Shown: positions 46,217-53,268 of the stretch, one piece after another | Layout of the letters: each line of letters opens with the position of its first letter | Numbering within the stretch: position 1 is the first letter of the stretch | DNA from: Paenibacillus bovis | Lineage (GTDB): Bacteria > Bacillota > Bacilli > Bacillales > Bacillaceae_C | Length of the DNA: 64,000 nt | Reading direction: 5' to 3' | Assembly: GCA_007679095.1 (NCBI GenBank) | Contig: VEFU01000006.1 | Span: 1 to 64,000, forward strand | The notes under the pieces: model-generated | Told to the model about the DNA's origin: nothing | Databases searched by the model: none | The model's input: only the letters and a program-made list of their open reading frames with translations | Program-made: the position numbers and the translations under genes

Positions 46217-47014
46217 TTATTGTATTTGATGCATCCAACTATCCATAAAAACAATATTTTTCTTATACAATTTACGCTCTAAAACTTTCTTTGTTGTAAA
46301 TTCACCGATGTTTATTACTTTGTTTAACCCTTTTGTTTCGAACCTACCAACATCATGTAGGTCGATATCAATTAATACATCGGCATGCTCCTTCAAGCAG
46401 CGATTTGTATTTTTTTGACTAGCTATATCAATATATCTATTAATATAAGAAAACATGTTGGAAGGGTAATGAGGATTAGAACTTCTAACTCTTACAGAAG
46501 TAACATTCTTTGCTCCCATCTTTCTTACAATATCTGCAGGATTATTGTTTAAAATATAACCATCAACTAGTAATTGATTATCTTTTTCAATGGGAGAAAA
46601 TATCCCAGGTATAGCTATGCTAGCTCTTATCGCAAGTGCAACCTCTCCAGTATTAATAACAACCATTTCACCCGAGATAAGATCTACGCATATAACAGCA
46701 AAAGGTATTTCTAAGTCTTCGAAGTGTTTTCCTTCCGTTAATTTTAAAAGAGTTTGGTAAATTCTATCTCCTTTTAAAAAACCTTTACGATTAAAACATA
46801 CATCTAAATATCGTCTTACAGACAAATTCTCAACAATAGCTTTCATCATTTCTGGTTTTATTCCGCATGCATAAAGTCCACCTACAACTGACCCGGCACT
46901 TGTACCTGCAATATGAGTAATTTTTATATCATTACGTATAAGTTCTTTAAGTGCCCCGATATGTGCTACCCCTCTGAGAGAACCTCCTCCAAGGGAAAGA
47001 CCTGTCTCTCTCAA
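46217..47014 (-). CDS. Patatin-like phospholipase (RssA-type)
   Basis: Serine lipid hydrolase of 265 residues with the catalytic pair in GTSAGS (nucleophile Ser near residue 41) and DGY (catalytic Asp near 151), and the oxyanion loop GGGSLRGVAHIG at the N-terminus. No signal peptide is seen, so it acts in the cytoplasm or on the inner membrane face. Start is TTG at 47014 overlapping the DedA stop codon. It is the last gene of an operon with a glycolipid-synthase-like protein and a DedA protein, which suggests a joint role in membrane lipids. Confidence 0.88.
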   Translation of the reverse strand: MRETGLSLGGGSLRGVAHIGALKELIRNDIKITHIAGTSAGSVVGGLYACGIKPEMMKAIVENLSVRRYLDVCFNRKGFLKGDRIYQTLLKLTEGKHFEDLEIPFAVICVDLISGEMVVINTGEVALAIRASIAIPGIFSPIEKDNQLLVDGYILNNNPADIVRKMGAKNVTSVRVRSSNPHYPSNMFSYINRYIDIASQKNTNRCLKEHADVLIDIDLHDVGRFETKGLNKVINIGEFTTKKVLERKLYKKNIVFMDSWMHQIQ

Positions 47015-49724: not shown

Positions 49725-49966
49725 GAATTTCTAACACAACAAATACGATGCCTAAGAGCCTCCTATAAAAAGGACGTATAATAAAAATTCACTCTCACTC
49801 TGACCTACTAATCTAATATATTTCAGAAACCTAACCAATAGTAATAAAATTCATAATTTTATTATATCATTCTTTTTCTTTTACTTACCAGTGCTTTTTT
49901 CCTTTACTTACTTTCGTCTAAAATATATTACTCTATCTTATTGTTACTGTCAAAAATGCTTTTTAC
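49725..49966. other. Intergenic DNA downstream of the signal precursor
   Basis: Nothing gene-like is seen. The stretch is AT-rich, contains the upstream region of the papain-like gene and ends at the precursor gene terminator. Confidence 0.4.
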
Positions 49967-50008
49967 ATAAAAATAGCGCTAACCACTTAGGCATAGCGCT
50001 ATTTTTAT
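49967..50008 (-). terminator. Terminator after the signal precursor gene
   Basis: Perfect 15-bp arms ataaaaatagcgcta and tagcgctatttttat with a 12-base loop lie 24 bp beyond the stop of the precursor gene; the arm supplies the T-run. Confidence 0.9.
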
Positions 50009-50032
50009 CTCTTTAACTATTAAACTGTAAAA

Positions 50033-50302
50033 TTAATGTTGCGTAGGTAAATCAGGCATGTCTGAAAGTGCAATTACAGAATGTTGCGTAGGTAAATCAG
50101 GCATATCTGATAAAGTAATTACAGGTTTTACACTATGTTGCGTAGGTAAATCAGGCATATCTGATAAAGTAATTACAGGTTTTACACTATGTTGTGTAGG
50201 TAAGTCAGGCATATCTGATAATGCATTAGCTGTAGACGGACCTAAATTACCAGCTGTGAATATGCCAAAAGTCAGTGCTAATGTAATAATTAATTTTTTC
50301 AT
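50033..50302 (-). CDS. Secreted signalling-peptide precursor with four SDMPDLPTQH copies
   Basis: A precursor of 89 residues. Residues 1-27 are a signal peptide (basic KK, hydrophobic core, cleavage at TANA). The rest is only repeats: SDMPDLPTQH occurs at 29-38, 47-56, 65-74 and 80-89, joined by SVKPVITL twice and SVIAL once, and the last copy forms the exact C-terminus. PapR of B. cereus has a similar build, with a signal peptide and a C-terminal SDLPFEF-like active end, but a single copy. The ATG follows aaggagtgaaatataa. It is 42 bp after a PlcR-like regulator gene on the same strand. The likely path is secretion, cleavage, import by an oligopeptide permease and binding to the regulator. 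The role is inferred from layout and context. Confidence 0.8.
   Translation of the reverse strand: MKKLIITLALTFGIFTAGNLGPSTANALSDMPDLPTQHSVKPVITLSDMPDLPTQHSVKPVITLSDMPDLPTQHSVIALSDMPDLPTQH
50041..50220. repeat. Tandem coding repeats in the precursor gene
   Basis: Repeat units begin at 50041, 50086, 50140 and 50194, giving periods of 45, 54 and 54 bp. The two 54-bp units are nearly identical, while the 45-bp unit lacks three codons. All periods are multiples of three and keep the reading frame, so this is not a CRISPR array. Confidence 0.9.
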
Positions 50303-50344
50303 TTATATTTCACTCCTTTTATAAATTTTATGGTAATTATATCA

Positions 50345-51238
50345 TCATTGTGTTAGTTTTTCCAATTCTGTAGCAACTATATTACTAAACTTTTTATTTT
50401 TTTGTAGTTTAAAAACATTTAATGAGTCTCTCAGATACTCAATTGCATCATTCTTTCTACCTAGTTCGGAGCTGTTAAATCCAGCTTGGTATAAAAACTC
50501 ACCTAAAAGATATAATATTTCGTCGTTAATACATTGCTGAATTCCTTTTTCACAGTACTTCAATGATTCCTCATACTCATTTACTCTTGTTAAGGATTGA
50601 GACAATCCAAATAAGGCCCTTAACCGTATCTGAGAATCTGATAGAGAAGGCAAGTTGTCCATATCATCAAGTATTTCCTTCAATAATACAATTGCCTTTT
50701 CAAAGCATTGATCATCCTTCTCTATCAATGCAATAGACATTTTTATTTCAATTTCTTGTTCTGTTAAACCTTTCTTACTTGGGTTAGTCATTTCAATAGC
50801 TTCAATTAACATCTGAATTGACTTTTCTTTTTCTCGTTCTTTTGGTCTAGCCAAGTAATAAAGACAGATTGCTTCATGCCATAGTAGATATTGTTTACTA
50901 GAGGAAAAATTAAAAAGTGGATTTTTCTTTTCACGTTGTACAATTTCATAGATTGCTTGATAATTACGATCCCTTTTAAACTTTTTAATTAGTCCGCTAA
51001 CAGCTGAAACATAGCTCATAGAATCTGCTGATGTAAAATCGAAAAAATCACTTAAATTAACGTTTAATTTATTTGCTAATCTGAAAAGCTCATCTATTGT
51101 AGGTACTTGTTTGTTTTTTTCAATTAAGGTAAGTTCTTCAACTGTGCAAATATCTTCTGCTAGATCAGCAAGCGACATGCCTTTATATTTTCTTAACGAC
51201 TGAAGGATTTCACCAATATTAACGAAACTTTCACCCAT
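50345..51238 (-). CDS. PlcR/RNPP-like peptide-responsive transcription regulator
   Basis: Regulator of 297 residues. Residues about 6-65 are a Xre-type helix-turn-helix (IGEILQSLRKYKGMSLADLA, then VPTIDELFRLANKLNV), and residues about 75-295 form helical TPR-like repeats (LLWHEAICLYYLA, LRALFGLSQSLTRVNEYEES, AIEYLRDSLNVF). This is the build of PlcR, NprR and related RNPP regulators that bind imported peptides. The signal precursor gene lies 42 bp downstream, the same order as plcR-papR. The ATG follows aaaggggtatataaa. Targets may include its own promoter and the divergent chemoreceptor gene. Peptide binding is inferred. Confidence 0.85.
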   Translation of the reverse strand: MGESFVNIGEILQSLRKYKGMSLADLAEDICTVEELTLIEKNKQVPTIDELFRLANKLNVNLSDFFDFTSADSMSYVSAVSGLIKKFKRDRNYQAIYEIVQREKKNPLFNFSSSKQYLLWHEAICLYYLARPKEREKEKSIQMLIEAIEMTNPSKKGLTEQEIEIKMSIALIEKDDQCFEKAIVLLKEILDDMDNLPSLSDSQIRLRALFGLSQSLTRVNEYEESLKYCEKGIQQCINDEILYLLGEFLYQAGFNSSELGRKNDAIEYLRDSLNVFKLQKNKKFSNIVATELEKLTQ

Positions 51239-51588: not shown

Positions 51589-53268
51589 ATGAGAACGATA
51601 AAAGGAAAAATTGTATGCGGTTTCACCATTATTATCTTAATGGTATTCGCTGTAGTATCAGGTAATTATTATTTTACTTCTGTTTCCAATCAACAAACTC
51701 AAAACATCATTGATGATGAATTACCAATTATGCTAATTTCAAATAAAATTGGAACGAATATTCTGGAACGCATGTCTTTAGCACGTGGCTACGTATTATA
51801 TGGTCAAGCAAGCTATCTTACACAATTTGATATTGCAACTACAGAAATTAGAAATCTAGAAAAACAGCTTCTAGAAATAGACTCATCTCAAGTAACAAAA
51901 GATGCGATAAAATTAATAAGTGATTGGGAAGAAGAACTTGAAACGGAGGTTTTTTCCGTTTATCGAGATGGAGATAAAGATTTAGCCCTCCTCAATTTTA
52001 GAGACAAAGTTGAAAAAACTGGTAGTTTAGTGCATACCACTTTTACCGTATTAACGGACAATCAATCCAATAAAATCACGACAACAGCTAATGATGTGTT
52101 ATCAGGAAATAAACGGAATAACTATATAAGTATTTCAATTGCCTTAATGTCTCTTATCGTCGGAATTACGATTGCACTAATTATGGCTTCAACAATTTCC
52201 AAGCCAATTATCCAAGCTTCCAATCGTATGAAACTAATTGCAAATGGTGATTTAACTCATGATGATTTAAAGACAAAATCAAAAGATGAAGCTGGTATTC
52301 TTATTCATGCAGTGAACGATTTAAATCGAGAAATCCGCTCTATGGCAATGGAAATAAGAAATGCATCTAGTACAGTTATGCATCGAAGTGAGGAATTAAG
52401 TTTTTCTGCAAATGAAGTGAATTCTGGAAGTCAACAAGTTGCTACTACGATGGAAGAACTTTCACATGCTGCAGAAATTCAAGCTTCTTCCTCTTCTAAG
52501 CTTGCTGAATCAATGAAATCTTTAACTGAAAATATTCATAATGCAAATGTATATGGACAACGAGCAACTGAAGTGACGACAGAAGTGTTAGCGCTAACAG
52601 AAAAAGGTAATGAAGCCATGACCGAATCGATAGAAAAAATGCGACTTATCGATGAAAATGTATTGGCTGCTGTAGAAAAAGTACAGTCTCTTGATCAGCA
52701 CTCAAAGAAAATTTCACAGTTAGTTCAAGTTATTTCAGATATATCAGAACAAACAAACCTACTTGCCTTAAATGCTGCAATTGAAGCTGCTCGAGCAGGT
52801 GAGCATGGCAGAGGTTTTGCTGTTGTTGCCGGCGAAGTGAAAAAGCTTGCAGAGCAAGTCAATAGTTCCGTTGCTGATATTACAGCTATCGTCTCGACTA
52901 TTCAAAAAGAAACTTCGGAAGTCGTACAATCACTGAATAAAAGTTTCGAACAAGTTGAATCTGGTACCGAACAAATCAAGACAACTGGAACAGCTTTCGA
53001 ATTAATTACGACCTCTATTCAGAAAGTAGTGAGTCAAATACATACCATCTCTGCAGATCTTGATAATATCGCAAAAAGTACAGATGTTATGAATAGCTCC
53101 ATCTCTGATATAGCCAATATTTCCGATGAGTCTTCTGCAAGAGTGGAAGAAACAGCTGCATTTGCTGAGCAAACAACAAGTTCCATGCAAGAAATTGCAG
53201 CAAGCTCCGAATCTTTGTCTGCTGTATCTGTCGATTTAAATAAATTAATTACAAGATTTAAAGTATAA
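51589..53268 (+). CDS. Methyl-accepting chemotaxis protein
   Basis: Chemoreceptor of 559 residues. One membrane helix (about 8-28), an extracellular four-helix-bundle-type ligand domain (about 30-178) and a second membrane helix (about 180-202) precede a HAMP domain and the long cytoplasmic signalling coiled coil. The hairpin tip is the conserved [20 protein letters not shown] region near residue 385-405. The protein ends without the pentapeptide used for methylation enzyme docking in enterics. The ATG follows aaggggggaacatta. It is divergent from the PlcR-like regulator and has its own terminator. Confidence 0.95.

Follow-up and report, generated by a model that had tools for sequence, protein, structure and literature searches.

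Downstream of a PlcR-like regulator gene, the window (the whole stretch of 64,000 nucleotides that was analyzed, placed in Lederbergia by genus code) carries a small gene for a precursor with four copies of one peptide, and we consider it very probable from sequence comparisons that the two form a PlcR-type (RRNPPA) quorum-sensing pair in which the precursor is a pheromone polyprotein. Judged from selection among the copies and from the ends of related precursors, the most likely signal is the heptapeptide PDLPTQH, which has the same register as PapR7 (ADLPFEF). All 22 receptors with countable arrays of such copies fall into a single clade.

A regulator gene and a repeated precursor gene

The ORF map of the window placed the precursor gene 42 nt downstream of the gene for a regulator with helix-turn-helix (HTH) and TPR domains, both on the minus strand (Table 1). 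The precursor contains four exact copies of SDMPDLPTQH at spacings of 18, 18 and 15 residues, with the stop codon directly after the fourth. The two ORFs, the gap of 42 bp and the four exact copies are as the preliminary description had them. Inspection of the sequence showed a leader consisting of KK and a hydrophobic stretch that ends in STANA, the ANA of which we take to be a signal-peptidase-like site motif. Tandem Repeats Finder reported a 54-bp DNA repeat within the gene. Searches with the precursor gave no Pfam family above cut-off and no NCBIfam match. Because the same gene pair was found in eight other genomes of the genus, the repeated precursor is not a product of chance.

Table 1. 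Coordinates of the gene pair and associated features in the window
Feature	Position	Strand	Remarks
PlcR-like receptor/regulator	50345..51238	-	297 aa; N-terminal HTH_3, C-terminal RNPP_C/TPR domain
Putative precursor promoter	50336..50365	-	TTGGAA-18-TATAAT, extended -10 TG; overlaps the regulator stop codon
Multi-copy pheromone precursor (probable)	50033..50302	-	89 aa ORF; repeated homologue in the same place in 8/8 other genus orthologues
Putative Sec signal peptide	50222..50302	-	Residues 1-27; ends ANA
Heptapeptide copy 1, PDLPTQH	50189..50209	-	Residues 32-38
Heptapeptide copy 2	50135..50155	-	Residues 50-56
Heptapeptide copy 3	50081..50101	-	Residues 68-74
Heptapeptide copy 4, C-terminal	50036..50056	-	Residues 83-89; stop codon next
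Hairpin, probable terminator	49967..50008	-	Just downstream of the precursor; fold 49955-50032, -24.5 kcal/mol, z -4.85

Relationship of the regulator to PlcR

Using Pfam, we found that the regulator matches RNPP_C (4.7e-23, 82.3 bits against a cut-off of 26.5) and HTH_3 (2.8e-8, 34.1 bits against a cut-off of 23), and that it is the one RNPP_C match in the genome to which the window belongs; no NCBIfam model scored above its cut-off. An HTH joined to an RNPP_C-type TPR domain in a protein of 297 aa lies within the definition of RRNPPA/RNPP receptors (about 250-500 aa), and the adjacent small propeptide gene that is used as a criterion for RNPP systems is present, its secretion being judged by eye from the KK and hydrophobic leader.

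PlcR was the best match when the single sequence was searched against all PDB chains (4.5e-11), and profile searches of the PDB gave PlcR over the whole length (2qfc, 5.8e-39 with profile A2; 2.9e-35 with profile A3). Among the best 60 of 129 PDB rows, Rgg, ComR and PrgX matched the HTH end only, and RapF matched only part of the TPRs. An AlphaFold model of the receptor (mean pLDDT 89.4, pTM 0.81) retrieved PlcR chains at Foldseek ranks 1 to 4, with TM scores by query of 0.61-0.65, the top chain being PlcR with PapR7 and DNA. VIA-align gave a Z of 23.0 to 2qfc, with 273 residues aligned at an rmsd of 12.5, which implies that the domain angles differ, and a Z of 21.1 to apo PlcR (224 residues, rmsd 3.2), while the first chain other than PlcR had a Z of 18.7. 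By sequence and by fold, the receptor is nearest to PlcR among its solved relatives.

Three PlcR residues, K89, Q237 and Y275, have been reported to contact Glu6 of PapR (PMC6568020). They align to R91, E247 and F284 of the window receptor, changes that are conservative or swapped, with none identical. R91 and E247 are each present in 26 of 28 aligned receptor rows, and among the 104 receptors for which no linked precursor was seen, 45 have R at position 91 and 75 have E at position 247. Since both residues are also common in those receptors, they give no sign of co-evolution with the peptide. Co-evolution was also considered for peptide position 6 and receptor position 247, at which Gln and Glu are swapped, and was dropped, Glu being usual in the receptors without a linked precursor too.

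Occurrence of the gene pair

The receptor was found in 9 of 16 Lederbergia genus genomes. Searching with just the precursor returned exactly those nine, leaving seven with neither gene. Members of the genus include L. citrea, L. citrisecunda, L. citri, L. panacisoli, L. wuyishanensis and Bacillus strains. Receptor and precursor are adjacent in all nine genomes, each precursor having four to seven copies, and six versions of the heptamer occur among them. The eight other receptors have 62-71% identity to that of the window. It had been set beforehand that orthologues always lacking a linked precursor would speak against the pair; all eight of these have a linked array, and this linkage, together with the profile match to 2qfc (5.8e-39) and the Foldseek and VIA-align results, bears out the initial proposal that a multi-copy pheromone precursor is linked to a PlcR-type receptor.

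The Lederbergia panacisoli locus (L010, L017) is unusual in that an in-frame TAA shortens the receptor to 276 aa, with Leu and not Arg at position 91, while a six-copy precursor ORF beside it is open. This is perhaps a decaying receptor next to a working signal.

Outside these nine genomes, Bacillus sp. FJAT-29937 (45-48% identity) has 11 copies of ADYPVQH. Plasmids gave receptor matches in 22 records, eight of which were inspected: two peptide copies were found in Cytobacillus oceanisediminis (L025) and one in Priestia megaterium (L026), and the leader-based ORF script saw no precursor at loci L027-L032. At one of the latter, on a plasmid of Alkalihalophilus pseudofirmus OF4 (L028), the PlcR-like receptor adjoins genes whose annotations are YcaO-like and TOMM leader-binding protein. 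A phage origin was considered and rejected, as tblastn against phages gave a single match (28.5% identity, 3e-9) and a scan of viral_contigs found no relative.

An order-wide search matched the receptor in 180 of 397 genomes at 1e-40. The order-level sample consisted of 130 high-ranking loci, namely the best 30, six of which were genus genomes already counted, and 100 further loci; within the best-30 set six candidates per genome were scored, and arrays may exist elsewhere. The precursor script required an ATG, GTG or TTG start and a hydrophobic leader, with L026 and L041 accepted by eye. Of 143 receptors, 23 had arrays, 16 had single-copy precursors and 104 had no precursor seen by the script, a tally in which L048 and L049 reach a contig edge just after the receptor and the pairs L029/L053 and L032/L064 are identical. 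At L051 the sequence turns to N beyond the second copy, so this array was excluded; the 22 countable arrays hold 2-12 copies each, 141 in total. Copy number varies even between near relatives, with 10 copies in L050 and five in L054. The 104 receptors without a visible precursor are possibly orphans or eavesdroppers. PlcR-like receptors are common in the order, and one genus has at least six per genome.

A receptor tree was produced from 42 chosen rows, in which near-copies L058-L061 were left out, as in the other tree, and L067 sat on a long branch. All 22 array-bearing receptors formed one clade (ultrafast bootstrap 100, SH-aLRT 98), and the array character required one change in all 200 bootstrap trees of these 42 rows. 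The sister of this clade consists of two single-copy receptors, whose 28-aa precursors end in LDLPIIH and LDLPSIH. A quick tree of 82 rows, assessed by SH-aLRT only, likewise held the array receptors in one starred group of 25 rows, and of the three rows without a precursor in that group, two stop at a contig edge and the third at a run of N. Both trees fit a single origin of the array, with room for unsampled gains and losses.

These relatives also bear on what kind of protein the precursor is. Repeated secreted ORFs can be structural, and the lack of any Pfam or NCBIfam assignment for the precursor would suit a secreted repeat protein (an antimicrobial, an adhesin or a wall protein) that is regulated by its neighbor and is not a signal. 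The neighbor, however, is the same receptor, from a peptide-binding family, the repeats are in a PapR7-like register, and the arrays belong to a graded series that runs down to single-copy precursors of 28-49 aa, so that we give the repeat-protein explanation very little credence.

Limits of the conserved peptide

The single-copy precursors end exactly in GLPSQH, GLPNQH, ILPAQH, ILPEQH, DLPHQH, DLPYQH, DLPIIH, DLPSIH or RLPNQH. In the window PDLPTQH lies directly before the stop codon, so that a PapR7-like heptapeptide stands at the precursor C-terminus, with limits that are set by selection within the arrays. Neighboring copies in arrays had a pN of 0.015 and a pS of 0.430 over the heptamer, figures that lean toward conservation at four of its seven positions because the motif by which copies were found spans those four, and a pN of 0.207 and a pS of 0.337 over seven linker codons. 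The heptamer had the lower pN in 21 of 21 comparable arrays (L025, which has no comparable linker, was omitted). Heptamer positions outside the search motif are also conserved, and few internal copies can have been missed, since the spacings are regular at 13-20 residues with no double gaps.

By codon, within-array copy pairs showed amino-acid differences of 0-4% and silent differences of 14-44% at the six codons ending at His, and amino-acid differences of 12% at the seventh codon back. Nonsynonymous differences were found in 2% of copy pairs at His and in 22% at the codon following it, and ranged over 20-49% across the next seven codons. Of the 141 copies, 135 are preceded by L, V, I, M, W or F, and 108 have Ser directly after His; from this pattern we infer candidate cleavage sites at both ends.

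PDLPTQH is the better unit, because His is both the last residue of the single-copy precursors and the point at which constraint within the arrays stops. The ten-residue unit that was proposed at the outset is exact within the window array, but across species it is the C-terminal heptamer that is conserved, while SDM varies. The accompanying alignment of SDMPDLP to SDLPFEF fails, with constraint ending at His and single-copy relatives ending in DLPYQH, GLPSQH and GLPNQH, and SDMPDLP was ruled out as the PapR register on these grounds.

A signal longer than the heptamer, either the whole of SDMPDLPTQH or a unit of 13-20 residues cut once each, has the appeal that one cut per unit is the simplest processing, and it would account for the constancy of SDM within the window array and for the fair conservation of the two residues that flank the heptamer, the hydrophobic one on its N-terminal side and the Ser on its C-terminal side. 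We think it unlikely, as constraint falls sharply after His (from 2% to 22%) and upstream of the heptamer, the unit can be anywhere between 13 and 20 residues long, His closes the single-copy precursors, and PlcR and PlcRa have heptapeptides as their known ligands (PMC6568020, PMC3519770), that of PlcR being PapR7, ADLPFEF (PMC6568020).

The alternative that only the terminal copy, or one copy, is matured was weighed against the same data. In that case the others would be neutral tandem duplicates that resemble one another because of recent slippage or gene conversion, as might be suspected from the closeness of the 54-bp DNA repeats in the window, from the unlike copy numbers of near relatives (L050 and L054, above) and from the few internal copies that vary, for example in L050, L055, L056 and L067. 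The many silent differences mean, though, that the copies are not all fresh, and the heptamer is nearly unchanged while the linkers change. The last copy, moreover, is not C-terminal in 18 of 22 arrays, and in L052 it is the degenerate one. Neutral copies are thus a distinctly improbable explanation, and selection within the arrays is in line with the maturation of internal copies.

Proposed maturation and signaling

For the window pair, we propose that the precursor would be exported by Sec and its leader removed after STANA. Extracellular proteases would then cleave between each heptamer and the bulky hydrophobic residue that precedes it (M/PDLPTQH in the window), and internal copies would also be cut after His (H/S), for a yield of up to four PDLPTQH per precursor. 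The peptide would be re-imported by an oligopeptide permease and would bind in the TPR groove of the receptor, much as PapR7 does in PlcR, with DNA binding being switched. Subtilisin-family matches (two) and SBP_bac_5 matches (three) in the window's genome make such a route of maturation and import possible. Different processing of terminal and internal copies is plausible, because the last copy in the window needs no C-terminal cut. The comparison with yeast alpha-factor that was drawn for this precursor is a fair analogy of design and says nothing about kinship.

It is tempting to speculate that the array is a heritable gain control, in which duplication or deletion of a 39-60 bp unit sets the number of pheromones per precursor and shifts the quorum threshold, while homogenization of the copies leads to new pherotypes. 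We put this forward as a tentative idea that is doubtful in its present form. If true, it would mean that the signal sequence changes in step across copies, as with the six heptamer versions in nine genus genomes.

Comparison with published systems

The PlcR-PapR system of the Bacillus cereus group is alike in having a receptor with HTH and TPR domains, a precursor encoded directly downstream and a C-terminal heptapeptide, and PapR ADLPFEF and window PDLPTQH have D2-L3-P4 in common. The differences are that PapR has one copy whereas here there are arrays, mostly with Gln at position 6 and His at position 7; that Gln237 of PlcR is Glu in most receptors here; and that no PlcR-box signal was found here. 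PlcRa-PapRa of B. cereus involves a PlcR paralogue and a signal, CSIPYEY, that lies inside its precursor (PMC3519770), so that PapRa needs a C-terminal cut, as internal copies would here. The papRa gene is upstream of plcRa, and the accessible part of that report does not mention repeated copies, whereas the precursor described here is downstream and repeated.

Propeptides with several identical or near-identical pheromones have been reported for AimR, NprR, Rap and PlcR systems, and 3 of 15 atypically long PlcR propeptides are multi-pheromone, according to the accessible parts of two reports (PMC9765709, PMC11343458). The preliminary statement of one copy per precursor thus holds for PapR but not for the PlcR family at large, and the multi-copy architecture as such is not new, PlcR-type examples having been reported in 2022 (PMC9765709). 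Some of the three published PlcR cases may belong to the array clade found here. Published propeptides have up to six copies (2022, PMC9765709) or eight (2024, PMC11343458), compared with 2-12 here. How multi-pheromone propeptides are cut and why the copies are kept was called an open puzzle (PMC9765709), which has since been tested on two two-copy Rap-Phr systems, in which experiments showed that both copies, the internal one included, are matured by secreted proteases, WprA and Bpr among them (PMC11343458). The published proof of maturation therefore concerns two-copy Phr propeptides, while the present arrays are of a PlcR-like clade with LPxQH peptides and are known from sequence.

A published detector has a default propeptide limit of 100 aa (PMC10075063), at which it would pass over many of these arrays, 16 of 22 being longer. 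Our literature searches, which were mostly of partial listings, brought up nothing against the earlier view that the peptide belongs to no described system; none of the papers retrieved with LPSQH, LPNQH, LPTQH, DLPTQH and ADLPSQH was on bacterial signaling by title and abstract. Within the literature searched, the LPxQH family, the clade-wide arrays, the copy numbers of up to 12 and the map of selection with candidate cleavage sites are new. The array clade and its nearest relatives form a graded series from 1 to 12 copies within one receptor family, with peptide ends marked by selection and candidate sites of cleavage, and in such a series the effects of dose, the processing and the change of pherotype can be tested directly.

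Promoter, terminator and target searches

The regulator gene in the window is overlapped at its end by an extended -10 sequence, TGATATAAT, which is preceded by TTGGAA. We found TGNTATAAT near the receptor stop in nine of nine genus loci (in L. panacisoli, 64 nt beyond the early receptor stop) and in none of the 104 receptors without a precursor seen. The extended -10 occurs in 10 of 23 arrays, as TGNTATAAT in the nine genus loci and as TGATACAAT in L019, but at none of 12 single-copy loci, and it was rejected as a general feature of arrays. Scanning 1.7 kb with the promoter consensus gave 18 promoter-like sites where shuffles gave 10.2, and the promoter evidence is therefore the conservation and not the scan. 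It suggests that the precursor has its own promoter in Lederbergia. A terminator scan of the pair region listed none, including at the hairpin given in Table 1.

The PlcR box, TATGNAN4TNCATA, was absent from the 250 bp upstream of 11 receptors and was not enriched in the genome (14 sites per strand versus 11 in the reversed control), and the missing signal speaks against B. cereus PlcR itself. PlcRa is also without a PlcR box (PMC3519770). A palindrome, ACTATATATAGT, is found upstream of several Lederbergia receptors. It was rejected as a regulon operator, as its 13-base pattern had 13 matches in 16 genomes, with none of them in that of the window, versus 10 in the reversed control, and searching the 16 genus genomes by operator pattern found no regulon.

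No target gene was identified beside the pair. A gene resembling an ABC-exporter permease was seen by eye downstream of the pair in six of eight relatives' loci (L012-L016 and L020), five of which also have a MerR-like gene, again by eye. This neighborhood is absent at the window, L018 and L019 loci, and these genes were rejected as a conserved adjacent target because the window and L018 are without them. Near the pair in the window, an ORF at 46217-47014 on the minus strand has a GxSxG motif and is presumably patatin-like, and a methyl-accepting chemotaxis protein (MCPsignal 1.8e-43) is encoded divergently from the receptor at 51589-53268 on the plus strand.
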